A DNA stretch of 64,000 nt from Muribaculaceae bacterium (GTDB taxonomy: Bacteria > Bacteroidota > Bacteroidia > Bacteroidales > Muribaculaceae), in contig JAFYYU010000016.1 of NCBI GenBank assembly GCA_017557425.1, positions 186,001-250,000 of the forward strand, written 5' to 3'. How positions within the stretch are numbered: position 1 is the first letter of the stretch; every line of letters starts with the position of its first letter. Positions 35,914 through 42,511 of the stretch are shown piece after piece. Both the position numbers and the translations under genes were made by a program. The notes below the pieces were generated by a model. It was given only the letters and a program-made list of their open reading frames with translations. It made no database searches and was not told where the DNA came from.

Positions 35914-35945
35914 CAAAGATAGTGCAAGCCGAGCGGAGTGCCAAA
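35914..35945 (-). promoter_or_regulatory. glnA promoter supplied by repeat element
   Basis: Minus strand: TTTG (35942-35945), exactly 20 bases, TATCTTTG (35914-35921). The -33 box and the whole spacer belong to the dispersed element; the -7 box is its edge. The mRNA leader is about 110 bases. Confidence 0.75.
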
Positions 35946-36120
35946 CAAAAAATCCATTTTTTTGTTTGCAATCCCGAGGCGCCGCCTATCTTGGCCGTAA
36001 GGCAACGGTCGTGCAAGCCGAGCGGAGTGCCAAACAAAAAATCCATTTTTTTGTTTGCAATCCCGAGGCGCCGCCTATCTTGGCCGTAAGGCAACGGTCG
36101 TGCAATCCCGAGGCGGGAAA
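35922..36120. repeat. promoter-associated dispersed element, tandem 89-bp copies at glnA
   Basis: Two identical 89-base units (35922-36010 and 36011-36099) and a shortened third (36100-36120). Each starts GTGCAAGCCGAGCGGAGTGC, has a central 11-bp A/T hairpin (CAAACAAAAAA / TTTTTTGTTTG), then ATCCCGAGGCGCCGCC and TATCTTGG. Relatives are at 49797-49895, 53185-53277 and 63454-63548, always directly upstream of a -7 box and in the same orientation to the gene. Confidence 0.85.
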
Positions 36121-37838: not shown

Positions 37839-39008
37839 TTAAAAATCGCTGCGGCGGATGGTGAGGGAGATAGCCCCATCGGGGAAACTGTCGCGGCCGC
37901 GGCACACGAGTGCTAGATAGCCGCCTCCACCAGCACCGGGCATCTTCCAGGCCATCACGCCAGGCATGACGCTGTAGCGGTCGATGTACTCCTGAACACC
38001 AGGCTGGATCATGGCGGGGAACATCGCTACCTGGGCCTCGAACGAGGCTTTGTAGGCGGCGGCAAAGGCGTCAAGGTCCATCCGTTGGATTGCCTCCCAG
38101 CAGCGGTCGGCGGCAGCGGCTAGGGCGCGCACTTTCTCGGGGGTGATATCCTTGCCCTCGACGACGCTGCAACCGGGGCGGCGCGGGAACATCGGTATCA
38201 TGCACAGGTGATCCTCCAGCCAACCCAACAGGGTGGAGTCCTGAGTATATTCGATTTTCTCGGGCCAGTAATTGCCATTATAATAATGTCGGGCAAGACC
38301 GGGCACACAGATGCCGATGGCGTCCTGTGCGCCGCTCACAATGCCGTCGCTGCGCTCGGGGTCGTTTTCGAGGCAGAAGACCAGCCGCGCCAGCATCTCG
38401 GGGTCCATGTTGGGGAGTTGCATGGGCCACACGCGCTTGATGGTGTTGCGCGTGCTGGTGGAGAGGCCGCAGCGCTCACGTATCTCAAACGTCGGCTCCA
38501 ACGAGATGGTCAGCGCCCAGCCTGGGGCATGGCACGACACATAGGGTTGGTCAATCCACGTTCCGGCAAGGTCCAGGCGGGTGGGCAACTGGCAGGTGGT
38601 CCGCTTGAGGTCAGTGCTGCTGCGGGCCTCAAGGCCTTGGCTAGGCTCACGCTTAAGCACGATGTATTCCATGCCGCGCTCTAGGCACAACGCCCGCTTT
38701 TCCTCACGGTCACCGTCCTCATTCACCACCAGACAGTCAGGCTGTACGAGGTCGAGGGTGGGCAGGAAATCCAGGTAGCCGTCACCCTGATTGATGTAAG
38801 CCTCCTTGACATAGCGGATGGCTTGAACCATGAACAGCCGCTCCCGCTCGTTGTAAAGCGTCTTGTGCCCCTTGAGGGCCTCGATGGTCTTGTCACTGCC
38901 GATGCCGACGTACAGGTCGCCATACTGCGACGCCTGCCTGAAGAACTCCACATGACCCGAATGCAGCAGGTCATAGCAGCCCGATACGAAAACTTTCCTA
39001 TTAGCCAC
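37839..39008 (-). CDS. cytidylyltransferase-like / GHMP-kinase-like fusion protein
   Basis: 389 residues in two parts. Residues 1-140 form a nucleotidyltransferase fold with the HxGH motif HSGH (16-19), as in TagD and the RfaE C-domain. Residues ~140-389 resemble GHMP sugar kinases: PTRLDLAGTWID (about 141-152, motif 1), GAQDAIG (about 246) and MPGAGGGGYLAL (about 363-374, motif 3). The ATP-binding motif 2 (PxxxGLGSS) is absent and the domain is about 100 residues shorter than real kinases, so it may bind a sugar without phosphorylating it. It heads an operon with the mutarotase and fucP, suggesting a role in fucose handling. Confidence 0.8.
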   Translation of the reverse strand: MANRKVFVSGCYDLLHSGHVEFFRQASQYGDLYVGIGSDKTIEALKGHKTLYNERERLFMVQAIRYVKEAYINQGDGYLDFLPTLDLVQPDCLVVNEDGDREEKRALCLERGMEYIVLKREPSQGLEARSSTDLKRTTCQLPTRLDLAGTWIDQPYVSCHAPGWALTISLEPTFEIRERCGLSTSTRNTIKRVWPMQLPNMDPEMLARLVFCLENDPERSDGIVSGAQDAIGICVPGLARHYYNGNYWPEKIEYTQDSTLLGWLEDHLCMIPMFPRRPGCSVVEGKDITPEKVRALAAAADRCWEAIQRMDLDAFAAAYKASFEAQVAMFPAMIQPGVQEYIDRYSVMPGVMAWKMPGAGGGGYLALVCRGRDSFPDGAISLTIRRSDF

Positions 39009-39033
39009 GTTTCATTTGGTTTTTTAAGACCTA

Positions 39034-39065
39034 CAAAGGTAGTCACTCTCTCTCAAAAAAACAAA
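39034..39065 (-). promoter_or_regulatory. promoter of the fucose-related operon
   Basis: Minus strand: TTTG (39062-39065), 20-base spacer, TACCTTTG (39034-39041). Confidence 0.75.
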
Positions 39066-39090
39066 CCCCGGTACCATTTGCCTAAATGAA

Positions 39091-39125
39091 GCCGTTCATT
39101 GTCACGTCTTGTAACAATGAACGGC
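39091..39125 (-). terminator. hairpin after trpB2
   Basis: Perfect 12-bp stem GCCGTTCATTGT / ACAATGAACGGC; followed on the minus strand by TTCATTTAGG, so termination may be partial. Confidence 0.6.
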
Positions 39126-39162
39126 CCAGTGTTTTATAATAACTTTTTTATTTGGTTGCGCG

Positions 39163-40521
39163 TTAGCTGTCCGGCACGCCTTGGAGTGTCCGTGCAATAT
39201 CGTCGTCGCTGATCTTATAGTTCATCAGGTCCCCGTTCAGGTACTGGTCATAGGCGCTCATGTCGATCAGGCCATGCCCCGAGAGGTTGAACAGGATGAC
39301 CTTTTCTTCGCCCGTCTGCTTGCATTTTTCGGCCTCACGGATGGCTGCGGCAATGGCATGGCTGGACTCGGGGGCGGGAATGATGCCCTCGGTGCGCGCA
39401 AAAAGCATTCCGGCATCAAAGGATTCGAGCTGCGAGATATCGACGCCGCGCATGAGCCCGTCCTTGAGCAGTTGGGAGATAATCATTCCGGCGCCGTGAT
39501 AGCGCAGGCCGCCGGCATGGATGTTGGCGGGCTTGAAGGTGTGTCCCAGCGTAAACATCGGCAGCAGGGGAGTATAGCCTGCCTCATCGCCGAAGTCGTA
39601 ACGGAATTCGCCGCGCGTGAGTTTCGGGCAGCTCTCGGGCTCGGCGGCGATGAATTCTGTGTGTTTACCGTCTTTAAGGTTGTGGCGCATGAAGGGGAAG
39701 GCGATGCCGCCGAAGTTTGAACCGCCACCGAAGCAGGCAATCACCACATCGGGGTATTCACCTGCCATCGCCATCTGTTTCTCGGCTTCCAGTCCGATAA
39801 TCGTCTGATGCAGACCCACGTGGTTGAGCACCGAGCCCAACGTATACTTGCAGTTCGGGGTCGTCGTGGCCAGTTCCACGGCCTCAGAGATGGCGGTGCC
39901 TAGCGAGCCGGGGTGGTGCGGGTCACGTGTGATGATATCCTTACCAGCACGGGTGGACATCGATGGCGACCCCGTTACAGCGGCGCCGAAGGTGCGCATG
40001 ATCGACGAACGGTAGGGCTTCTGCTGCATCGAGATTTTCACTTGATAGACAGCGGCTTCGAGGTCAAATACCCTTGCGGCGTAGGCTAGGGCGGCACCCC
40101 ATTGTCCGGCACCGGTTTCGGTGGTGACGTTGGTGGTCCCTTCCTGCTTGGCATAATAGCACTGTGCCAGTGCCGAGTTTATTTTGTGGGAACCCAACGG
40201 GTTCACCGATTCGTTCTTGAAGTAGATGTGTGCCGGCGTCTGCAACGCTTCCTCCAGGGAATAGGCGCGCACGAGCGGGGTGGAACGGTAGAAGCGGTAT
40301 TTGTCCAGCACTTCCTCGGGTATAGGAATGAAATCATGTTCGGTATCAAGTTCCTGAACACAGCATTCACGCGGGAAAATATGGGCCAGATCGTCCACAC
40401 CAAGCGGCTGCCGGGTGGCAGGGTGGATGGGAGGCATCGGTTTGGTGGGCATGTCTGCCTGGATGTTGTACCATGCTGTGGGCAACTCGTTTTCTTGAAG
40501 AATAAATCTTTTCTGTTTCAT
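39163..40521 (-). CDS. trpB: tryptophan synthase beta chain, TrpB2 type
   Basis: 452 residues, the longer TrpB2 class (TrpB1 is ~395). It uses pyridoxal phosphate to join indole and serine to tryptophan. The PLP lysine is Lys113 in NPLGSHKINSA; the phosphate-binding loop CFGGGSNFGG is near 266. N-terminal extension (1-75) and GHTFKPANIHAGGLRYH (about 325-341) are TrpB2 traits. TrpB2 enzymes usually work without TrpA, salvaging free indole, which suits a gut resident. It is alone, without other trp genes, and lies behind a leader peptide and attenuator. Confidence 0.93.
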   Translation of the reverse strand: MKQKRFILQENELPTAWYNIQADMPTKPMPPIHPATRQPLGVDDLAHIFPRECCVQELDTEHDFIPIPEEVLDKYRFYRSTPLVRAYSLEEALQTPAHIYFKNESVNPLGSHKINSALAQCYYAKQEGTTNVTTETGAGQWGAALAYAARVFDLEAAVYQVKISMQQKPYRSSIMRTFGAAVTGSPSMSTRAGKDIITRDPHHPGSLGTAISEAVELATTTPNCKYTLGSVLNHVGLHQTIIGLEAEKQMAMAGEYPDVVIACFGGGSNFGGIAFPFMRHNLKDGKHTEFIAAEPESCPKLTRGEFRYDFGDEAGYTPLLPMFTLGHTFKPANIHAGGLRYHGAGMIISQLLKDGLMRGVDISQLESFDAGMLFARTEGIIPAPESSHAIAAAIREAEKCKQTGEEKVILFNLSGHGLIDMSAYDQYLNGDLMNYKISDDDIARTLQGVPDS

Positions 40522-40549
40522 TGTTGATAATGATTAAATATTGATATTT

Positions 40550-40581
40550 AAAAAGGCCTGTCGCAAGAACGACAGACCTTT
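40550..40581 (-). terminator. attenuator (terminator) in the trpB2 leader
   Basis: Minus strand: AAAGGTCTGTCG, loop TTCTTG, CGACAGGCCTTTTT, within the leader and 29 bases before the trpB2 start. The 5' arm can pair instead with CGCCTGACC (40614-40622), an antiterminator. Confidence 0.85.
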
Positions 40582-40624
40582 AATTTCTTTATTGTAATCT
40601 TATGATTCCATACGGTCAGGCGAC

Positions 40625-40681
40625 TCACGACTTTTTCAATCTCGAGCAGCGCCACCACCAATATGATGAAATCATTGTCAT
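40625..40681 (-). CDS. trp leader peptide with three consecutive Trp codons
   Basis: An 18-residue peptide, MTMISSYWWWRCSRLKKS, starting about 20 bases after the predicted transcription start. Trp codons are at 40652-40660. No conventional Shine-Dalgarno is seen. When charged tRNA-Trp is scarce a ribosome would stall at WWW, leaving CGCCTGACC free to pair with GGTCTGTCG and so prevent the terminator hairpin. This is the architecture of enteric trpL, here in front of trpB2. The peptide itself is unlikely to have another function. Confidence 0.85.
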   Translation of the reverse strand: MTMISSYWWWRCSRLKKS

Positions 40682-40706
40682 AGTCTAAATATTTATGTTG
40701 ACGCTG

Positions 40707-40737
40707 CAAATATATATACGTTTCGGCTAATAGACAA
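40707..40737 (-). promoter_or_regulatory. promoter of the trp leader and trpB2
   Basis: Minus strand: TTG (40735-40737), 20-base spacer, TATATTTG (40707-40714); transcription should start near 40700. Confidence 0.75.
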
Positions 40738-40849
40738 GAATTATTATGGAAAAAATACTGATTAACCGCTATAACTACTGAAATCGGTTAGAATTGCCGC
40801 CTTCACTAAAGGAAAGAGAGTTCATAAAAATAGGGTAATTGTGCTTTTT

Positions 40850-40881
40850 TTTGGATTTATTCGGGAAAAAGACTAACTTTG
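40850..40881 (+). promoter_or_regulatory. promoter of the HerA-like ATPase gene
   Basis: TTTG (40850-40853), 20-base spacer, TAACTTTG (40874-40881). Confidence 0.75.
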
Positions 40882-40927
40882 TGACCGACTACGGAACATA
40901 ACAATAACCCATCAATACAACTACATT

Positions 40928-42511
40928 ATGTACACTCAAGAGAACGGATTTTACATTGCTCATGGGCCCAATGGACCTATCAGCATTTTGGGCAACATGG
41001 CCAACCGCCACGGTTTGATTGCCGGAGCGACAGGTACTGGTAAAACGGTGACCCTGCAAGTGATTGCCGAGAGTTTCTGCAAGGCCGGCGTGCCCTGTTT
41101 TATGGCCGACATGAAGGGCGACCTGTCAGGTGTGAGCCAGCCCGGCAAATTGTCGGGATTTATCGAGAAGAGGATCCCCGAGTTCGGCATGAACCAGGAG
41201 GACCTTACCTTTGAAGGCTGTCCCGTCAGGTTTTATGACGTGTTTGGCGAGCAGGGAATTTGCATGCGTGCCAGCCTGGGCGAGATGGGTCCGGATCTGG
41301 TGGCCCGCATTCTGAGTTTGAACGAGACCCAGACAGGCGTGCTCAATATTTTGTACCGCATTCTCGATGAAAAAGGCGTCCTGCTTGACGACATCAAAGA
41401 CTTGCGTTCGGCACTGGATTGGCTCTCAAAGCATGCCAAGGAATACACCACGCAGTATGGCAATGTGACCACGGCAAGCATCGGCGCGATACAGCGTGCC
41501 ATCCTGCAACTCGAGAACCAGGGTGCCGACAAGTTTTTCGGCATCCCGTCATTTGACATCCAGGATCTGTTTGCCACACGTGATGGCAAAGGTGTGTTGA
41601 GTGTACTTGCTGCCGATAAACTCATGCTGCAGCCCAAACTGTATTCTACATTCCTGCTCTGGCTGCTGAGCGAGCTTTATAGCACGCTGCCCGAGGTTGG
41701 CGATCTGGACAAGCCCAAGCTGGTCTTCTTCTTTGACGAGGCCCACATGCTGTTTGAGGACACGACTAAGGCGTTGAGCGACAAGATCGAACAAGTGATC
41801 CGTCTTATCCGCAGCAAGGGCGTAGGCATCTTTTTCATCTCACAGTTGCCTACTGATATCCCCGACATCATTTTGGGGCAGTTGGGCAATAGGGTTCAAC
41901 ATGCCCTGCGTGCCTACACGCCACGCGACCAGAAGGCTGTCAAGGTGGCAGCCGAAACTTTCCGCGCCAATCCCGAGTTCAAGACCGAGGAGGCCATCCT
42001 GCAACTGGAAACGGGTGAGGCTCTCGTGTCGTTCCTCGACGAGAAGGGTGCTCCCGGCATGGTAGAACGTGCCAAGATATTGTTCCCTCTGAGCCAGATT
42101 GGCGCCATTACCGAGGGACAACGCCTGGACATCATGAATGCAGCCAGCGATATCAATGCCAAGTATAAGCAGGCTGGGGAGAGGGAAAGCGTGTTTGAGG
42201 TCTTTGCCCGTGAGGCCGAAGCCGAAGCCAAGGCTGCCGAAGAAGCCGCTGCGGCCAAGGAAGCCGAGAAAGAGGAGAAAGCAAAGAAAAAAGAGAAAAC
42301 TATCTGGGACAAGGTGTGGAAGGCCGTTGTCACAGCGGTGACAGGCACGCTGGCCACCATCCTGGGCAAGACGGTTTCTGACACCATCACCGGTAAGAAA
42401 AGCAAAAACACCAGTGTCAAGGATGCTGCCGGGCGTGCGGTAAAGAACGCCACCAGCGCTGCCGGACGTCAGATCCTGCGTGACATCCTGGGCAACGTCG
42501 TCAAGAAATAA
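40928..42511 (+). CDS. HerA-like DUF853 ATPase (YjgR family)
   Basis: 527 residues. Walker A GATGTGKT (33-40), ADMKGDLSG (about 60-68, typical of DUF853) and Walker B LVFFFDEAHMLF (about 262-273) define a hexameric HerA/FtsK-type ATPase. The C-terminal ~100 residues change character: an Ala/Glu/Lys-rich coil (about 425-460) followed by a basic, Ser/Thr/Lys-rich tail. Function of YjgR-type proteins is unknown; DNA or protein translocation is assumed from HerA. Single gene with consensus promoter and a 16-bp terminator. Confidence 0.9.
   Translation: MYTQENGFYIAHGPNGPISILGNMANRHGLIAGATGTGKTVTLQVIAESFCKAGVPCFMADMKGDLSGVSQPGKLSGFIEKRIPEFGMNQEDLTFEGCPVRFYDVFGEQGICMRASLGEMGPDLVARILSLNETQTGVLNILYRILDEKGVLLDDIKDLRSALDWLSKHAKEYTTQYGNVTTASIGAIQRAILQLENQGADKFFGIPSFDIQDLFATRDGKGVLSVLAADKLMLQPKLYSTFLLWLLSELYSTLPEVGDLDKPKLVFFFDEAHMLFEDTTKALSDKIEQVIRLIRSKGVGIFFISQLPTDIPDIILGQLGNRVQHALRAYTPRDQKAVKVAAETFRANPEFKTEEAILQLETGEALVSFLDEKGAPGMVERAKILFPLSQIGAITEGQRLDIMNAASDINAKYKQAGERESVFEVFAREAEAEAKAAEEAAAAKEAEKEEKAKKKEKTIWDKVWKAVVTAVTGTLATILGKTVSDTITGKKSKNTSVKDAAGRAVKNATSAAGRQILRDILGNVVKK

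Follow-up and report, generated by a model that had tools for sequence, protein, structure and literature searches.

A Predicted Tryptophan Attenuator With a Stop-Codon Antiterminator Upstream of Stand-Alone trpB2 in a Muribaculaceae Bacterium

Within the 64,000-nucleotide stretch of contig JAFYYU010000016.1 analyzed here (hereafter the window), the region upstream of trpB2 carries a real leader of the attenuator type: its parts are present in the sequence, it folds beyond chance, it matches an Rfam family and it is kept in relatives. The prediction that a stand-alone TrpB2 is controlled by a ribosome-mediated tryptophan attenuator is well supported by comparison, and we consider it very probable that the leader is a transcription attenuator of the Bacteroidales Trp-leader lineage, working through the ribosome and gating the indole-to-tryptophan step. 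The leader family itself is known; what is new is the target gene, a genome in which tryptophanase is present and trpA was not found, and an antiterminator built on the leader stop codon.

Architecture of the Leader

All elements lie on the minus strand and follow one another as the earlier note had described, with a promoter, an 18-codon leader carrying three Trp codons, a terminator with a U-run and trpB2; the coordinates were rechecked. The promoter (40737–40707), recognized from the sequence, is of the Bacteroidota type, with TTG at 40737–40735, a 20-nt spacer and TATATTTG at 40714–40707, the latter fitting TAnnTTTG, the Bacteroidota promoter consensus. The leader peptide (MTMISSYWWWRCSRLKKS) runs from the ATG at 40681 to a TGA ending at 40625, and its codons 8–10 (40660–40652) all specify tryptophan; tandem regulatory codons in a short ORF, here WWW, are one mark of a ribosome-mediated amino-acid attenuator. 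The leader has no Shine-Dalgarno sequence, which is ordinary for Bacteroidota.

In the minimum-free-energy (MFE) fold, an outer protector helix (within 40675–40602) joins the codons before the Trp codons (40675–40666) to a segment past the stop (40611–40602), and an inner protector, or “pause,” hairpin (40653–40619) sequesters the stop-codon segment. The intrinsic terminator (40581–40550) consists of the stem 40581–40569/40564–40552 and a U-run at 40554–40550, which counts only five residues, three of them paired in the stem. It is followed by trpB2 (40521–39163), assigned by the models NF009057 and TIGR01415 and encoding a stand-alone TrpB-like tryptophan synthase of 452 aa. The MFE of the leader was −50.6 kcal/mol against −31.5 ± 4.2 in 200 shuffles (z = −4.5), none of which equaled it. 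A simple scan of positions 39000–42000 revealed no excess of promoter-like sites (4 vs. 3.0 in shuffles) or of terminator-like sites (2 vs. 3.0), and it listed the terminator of the trpB2 leader only as its complement on the plus strand (40558–40575).

Comparative Tests of the Predicted Pairings

The model R1 was built from 15 trpB2 leaders, namely, that of the window and those of 14 of the 80 trpB2 loci, five of the 14 (L002, L003, L005, L006, and L025) belonging to genomes of the genus. The alignment A3 held 75 matches, of which two proved to be opposite-strand artefacts; 73 were kept, 70 of them with a recognized core, and 44 were nonredundant, 43 of these with the core. The two artefacts remain in the column counts for the protector, terminator and antiterminator and were removed from the duplex, ribosome, promoter and peptide tests. 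Of the 73 leaders, 72 had enough flank to look for a TAnnTTTG motif; 67 of these have one no more than 60 nt ahead of the model start, against a mean of 2.1% of upstream control windows.

The protector and the terminator were evident in this alignment, which was itself fitted to their structure: the two helices of the inner protector had 77.9 and 94.0% paired cells, with changes on both sides in 8 of 12 pairs, and the terminator helix had 97.1%, with such changes in 11 of 13 pairs. The outer helix gave an unconvincing fixed-column count (only 53.8% paired), which we put down to a floating register; in an alignment-free test on the 44 nonredundant leaders, its own arms paired better than swapped ones (z = −7.9), the automatic segmentation having miscut a few rows (such as L007).

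The antiterminator first suggested for this leader, CGCCTGACC (40622–40614) with GGTCTGTCG (40578–40570), is present but turned out to be incomplete, the weak middle of a longer pairing. Duplexes of this type, between the segment after the stop and the 5′ arm of the terminator, were hardly specific to their own leader, with p = 0.59 for 15 leaders, 0.15–0.21 for 44, 0.04–0.07 for 73 (a few rows being miscut in these two sets) and 0.04 for 43 once the core was included. Because the signal for this duplex alone was so small, a longer pairing was sought. It was found in the complementarity of GTCGTGAG (40631–40624), which overlaps the leader stop TGA (40627–40625), to CTTGCGAC (40567–40560) in the loop and 3′ arm of the terminator, nested around GACC:GGTC. 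The predicted 5′ strand (40631–40614) thus combines the core GTCGTGAG with CG..C.GACC at 40622–40614, and the 3′ strand (40578–40560) combines GGTC at 40578–40575 with CTTGCGAC; the free energy of the duplex in the window is −19.5 kcal/mol.

In the 43 nonredundant leaders with the core, own antiterminator strands paired better than permuted ones (z = −5.65; p = 0.0002, which is the lowest value attainable with 5000 permutations), the relatedness of the leaders being only partly removed. The signal was clear in the 27 trp-operon leaders (z = −4.6) and weak in the 16 trpB2 leaders (z = −1.7, p = 0.05). In the alignment, which was not fitted to the antiterminator, 86.2% of its cells were paired, compared to at most 55.6% when the strands were slid. 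Cells changed on both sides numbered 25, against 13.1 in shuffles, a count reached in none of 500; pairs changed on both sides showed no excess (5 vs. 4.0, reached in 148 of 500). Matching changes include ATCGTGAG with CGAT, GTCGCGAG with GCGAC and ATCGTAAG with CTTGCGAT. The first pair of the core is lost in 16 of 71 rows, and among 53 control terminators there are two whose pairing with the core equals in strength that of the core's own terminator. In silico, the leader therefore has the mutually exclusive protector, antiterminator and intrinsic terminator of an attenuator.

Folding With a Positioned Ribosome

The 43 leaders were also folded with an assumed ribosome footprint masked from −16 to +13. 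With the ribosome on the last Trp codon and 4–6 nt of the terminator 3′ arm made, a mean of 13.7–14.3 antiterminator pairs formed, compared to 0.2 with the ribosome at the stop codon and 1.3–1.9 without a ribosome. When the A-site was moved along the leader, more than 80% of leaders formed the antiterminator as long as the A-site was no more than 3 codons to either side of the last Trp codon; the proportion was 49% at −4, 67% at +4, and 23–24% at −5 and +5. At +10 nt of the 3′ arm, the terminator prevailed even with a stalled ribosome (mean of 7.3 pairs vs. 4.0 for the antiterminator), so that the commitment to antitermination would have to be kinetic.

Distribution in the Genus and in Related Bacteria

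The genus set comprised 101 genomes (that of the window included), which were searched with R1 under stricter filters, with TrpB2 and with trpA. TrpB2 of 89–100% identity was found in 29 genomes and the leader in all 29, six of these matches (the window and the contigs of the five genus loci named above) having helped to build R1 and thus matching by construction. The leader lies 23–51 nt upstream of trpB2 on the same contig in 27 of the 29, in one case lacking the peptide; in G115 and G019, the two are split between separate contigs and lie at the ends of these. Another 44 genus genomes have TrpB2 of 52–79% identity, and none showed an R1 match at trpB2 under the stricter filters. A closer inspection of 23 of these other-type loci yielded neither an R1 match (E up to 0.1) nor a short ORF with Trp-Trp within 300 nt, apart from a 44-codon ORF in L142 that was judged spurious. 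The conservation in front of trpB2 on which the earlier note had made its reading depend is thus limited: within the genus, it covers all genomes with the same type of TrpB2 and none with the other types. Likewise, the WWW-type peptide expected before trpB2 in Bacteroidales is of restricted occurrence, a Trp-rich short ORF being found at only 14 of the 80 trpB2 loci.

Six genus genomes have trpB1, and in each of them a short ORF with Trp-Trp or Trp-Trp-Trp lies upstream of it; these leaders score 17.9–52.6 bits with R1, only two exceeding 23. For 50 of the 80 trpB2 loci, mostly from rumen Prevotella-like bacteria, the genomes were tested for trpA, which was over the cut-off in 41, and with R1, which matched 44 at E up to 0.01. 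Of 32 Prevotella-like leaders outside trpB2 that were inspected (R1 scores of 42.4–107 bits), 30 precede trpB1, and most of their peptides resemble (W)WW(R/Q).SR(L/F)KKS. In L209 (G125) and L196 (G149) the leader stands before trpD of a rearranged trp operon in which trpB1 comes after trpA, and the leader therefore keeps its place before whichever gene comes first in the operon. Parsing gave two or more Trp codons for 36 of the 37 trpB2 leaders and 35 of the 36 trpB1-type leaders, the remaining two being unparsed.

The idea that the trpB2 leader generally accompanies tryptophan auxotrophy was rejected: among the 50 genomes tested for trpA, nine outside the genus have such a leader, and eight of these nine also have trpA, which means that leader and auxotrophy do not necessarily go together. 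The idea of TrpB2 as the sole TrpB was likewise set aside for G127 and G128: TrpB1 was not found in them, but their trp contigs break off just before trpE, the first gene seen (named by eye), or inside it.

Several variant leaders were observed. Three retain promoter and terminator and have lost the Trp peptide (L154, 2481–2609, in G114; L059, 2305–2451; and L080, upstream of 2501), the loss in L080 being judged by eye at an R1 score of only 13.8 bits. They are natural deletions, in which trpB2 should be permanently low. L036 has a weak R1 match (32.6 bits) and no Trp-rich ORF. The peptides of L007, L008, L010 and L013 read CWCW or YWCW, with Cys codons interleaved with two Trp codons, which possibly widened the range of what the leader senses. 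In G132, two copies of the leader (L212 and L222) occur about 17 kb apart on one contig, one before trpB1 and one before trpB2.

TrpB2 and the Physiology of the Host

The enzyme scored 688.4 bits with NF009057 (cut-off 366) and 587.8 with TIGR01415 (cut-off 518.85); with the trpB model TIGR00263 it reached 150.1, far under the cut-off of 392.45. Its nearest solved chains, 6hul, 4qys and 6hte, are named tryptophan synthase beta chain 1 or 2. Neither trpA nor a PF00425 (chorismate-binding) protein was found in the genome of the window by searches that were positive in 14 of 14 control genomes; since this genome is a draft (85% complete, 4.5% contamination), both absences are provisional. The genome encodes tryptophanase TnaA (NF053783, 897.3 bits, cut-off 750; L223, 2382–3758), and no short ORF with Trp-Trp was seen in the 384 nt upstream of the gene. 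A member of the tryptophanase family, fragments counted, is present in 73 of the 101 genus genomes and in 27 of the 29 with the leader; none met the own cut-off of TIGR02617, and only the protein of the window's genome was classed further.

With no trpA or PF00425 protein found and tryptophanase present, the predicted TrpB2 probably recaptures indole when tryptophan is scarce and is off when it is plentiful, so that the proposal of indole salvage under tryptophan starvation fits the genome. TrpB2 represents a second class of tryptophan synthase beta chains, and a Trp-codon attenuator on trpB2 where trpA was not found would be regulatory evidence that it makes tryptophan there.

It is unlikely that the attenuator is real while TrpB2 does something other than make tryptophan from free indole, with another substrate or another use. 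Such a role would agree with the use of O-phosphoserine reported for TrpB2 enzymes (Busch et al., 2014, cited in PMC11917138) and with the presence of trpA in most of the non-genus genomes that have a trpB2 leader; however, control by Trp codons implies a product linked to the charging of Trp-tRNA, and trpA, over the cut-off in 5 of the 101 genus genomes, was found in none of the 29 drafts of the leader-bearing type.

Origin and Genomic Location

The unit of leader and trpB2 occupies a single location in the genus: it is flanked by a HerA-like ATPase gene in 28 of the 29 genus genomes (not in G098), and a fkp-like gene flanks it in 25 of the 26 other genomes whose downstream side was fetched (in G124 the contig ends). 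The TrpB2 phylogeny was a quick tree of 124 rows (6 identical rows dropped) with midpoint root and many open forks, in which L004 carries the label “none” despite the leader on a separate contig of its genome, G115. In it, the leader-bearing clade of the genus nests among Prevotella-type TrpB2 (SH-aLRT 99 and 96), separate from 23 other TrpB2 of the same genus (SH-aLRT 99). With R1, the genus's own trpB1 leaders score 17.9–52.6 bits, while the 32 Prevotella-like leaders outside trpB2 reach 42.4–107. The simplest reading is that leader and trpB2 moved jointly from Prevotella-like bacteria, a direction that we infer. An in-place replacement of trpB1 by trpB2 was not supported, as the trp-operon loci L148–L153 showed no match to the trpB2-flanking proteins (8–16 kb per locus).

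Two further features of these regions were noted. A contig break between terminator and trpB2 (the end of L094, and L004, 1–119, in G115) has the inverted ends GTGTCCACTAAAAA and TTTTTAGTGGAC, and looks like the insertion of a mobile element between attenuator and gene. In the window itself, two 89-nt direct repeats, 97% alike, lie at 35914–36091, just downstream of a fucP-like gene.

Such a history might have left a relic: leader and terminator would have accompanied trpB2 out of an ancestor of the trp-operon type and would no longer regulate, the terminator merely lowering expression. A single transfer into one mostly conserved genomic location could explain the presence of the leader in all 29 genomes, and terminator-only forms do exist (in G114, L059 and, by eye, L080). 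However, the Trp codons, the protector, the terminator and the antiterminator complementarity are kept together while the sequence of the terminator drifts, and the WWW peptide is retained in 28 of the 29 clade members, G114 alone having kept the terminator and lost the peptide. We therefore regard loss of regulation as quite improbable.

Proposed Mechanism

According to the attenuation model that we favor, when tryptophan is plentiful the ribosome would reach the TGA inside GTCGTGAG and cover this segment, and the terminator (40581–40550) would halt transcription before trpB2. When charged tRNA-Trp is scarce, the ribosome would stall on the Trp codons 8–10 and open the protector hairpins; the freed GTCGTGAG...GACC could then pair with GGTC...CTTGCGAC, that is, with both arms of the terminator and its loop, leading to read-through into trpB2. 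If the leader is not translated, the protector would hold the stop-codon segment and the terminator would form. An action of the leader on the translation of trpB2 or the stability of its mRNA, instead of on transcription termination, for which the distance of only about 100 nt between leader stop and trpB2 ATG may speak, is scarcely credible given that stem and U-run are conserved (97.1% paired cells) and that the alternative pairing targets the terminator hairpin, not the start of trpB2.

Following read-through, TrpB2 would make tryptophan from indole. The host seems to lack de novo indole synthesis and has tryptophanase, and for this reason the switch would recapture indole upon tryptophan shortage and prevent a futile cycle otherwise. 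As a whole, we put forward tentatively, as a possibility that we take seriously but would not yet call probable, a joint picture in which an antiterminator architecture of the Bacteroidales' own, with a stop-codon segment that invades the terminator loop and 3′ arm and is masked by the terminating ribosome, moved with trpB2, probably from Prevotella-like bacteria, into tryptophanase-carrying relatives that had lost the trp operon, where the recycling between tryptophan and indole would be the only tryptophan-making step. This suggests that tryptophanase-bearing bacteria of the gut and rumen may gear the recycling of indole to how much tryptophan they themselves have, and it offers a concrete and testable antiterminator for a leader family of Bacteroidota.

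Relation to Known Systems

The closest known family is Bacteroid-trp (RF01692), a motif of Bacteroidetes to which Table 1 of Weinberg et al. (2010; PMC2864571) assigns a likely cis-regulatory role. In a search of 201 nt, its model matched 40701–40571 over its full length (model positions 1–131) with 39.1 bits and E = 0.0017; a search of the whole own genome gave no matches at E up to 0.001. As the score is below the Rfam gathering score of 49 bits, the leader is a homologous variant and not a member by the Rfam rule. Matches to RF01692 were found in 3 of 61 genomes (own and relatives) at L082–L084, with 50.2, 49.7 and 48.5 bits, two of them over the cut-off, and each of these leaders precedes a gene that passes the trpB model TIGR00263. 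Reciprocally, R1 recovered the three trpB1 leaders at full length (E = 3e-11 to 1e-8), which argues that the window leader is homologous to RF01692 as a divergent variant. A chance match was also considered: of 10 related trpB2 loci, only 3 gave a match to RF01692 (E up to 1; 37.7–40.4 bits), each of them where the leader was expected. The two kinds of leader share the full-length alignment, a WWW peptide that ends near a AGUCGUGAG-like core, the 5′ arm of the terminator and the occurrence of a Trp-codon peptide before a tryptophan gene in Bacteroidota. They differ in that RF01692 leaders precede trpB1 or the trp operon, whereas the leader studied here precedes trpB2. Moreover, the RF01692 model stops in the 5′ arm of the terminator while the antiterminator of the window extends beyond, and therefore it cannot describe the antiterminator found here.

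The mechanism had been equated earlier with that of the enteric trpL. Ribosome-mediated tryptophan attenuation is indeed supported by our comparison, but the kinship is with RF01692: the enterobacterial Trp leader was absent from the 10 matches of a scan of 4227 Rfam families at E up to 10, which gave no T-box match either. Both systems have tandem Trp codons, protector, antiterminator, terminator and the logic of stalling. In the window, by contrast, the antiterminator strand holds the leader stop codon and reaches via the loop into the 3′ arm of the terminator, and the gene is trpB2.

Among the matches listed in open-licence literature, no paper describes an attenuator before trpB2 in Bacteroidota. 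In Corynebacterium diphtheriae, candidate attenuators were described before trpB1EDGC and trpB2A (PMC1262725). Such actinobacterial trp attenuators share with our leader the double or triple UGG codons of the leader peptide; their “trpB2A” is an operon with trpA in another phylum, whereas here trpB2 stands alone in genomes in which no trpA was found. With regard to the enzyme, the TrpB paralogs of Thermococcus kodakarensis are reported to act in indole salvage (Hiyama et al., 2014, cited in PMC11085991), a case that shares with the one predicted here a TrpB2-class enzyme used on free indole. The excerpt of PMC11085991 describes no RNA control for it, whereas in the bacterium studied here an attenuator would tie TrpB2 to the supply of tryptophan.
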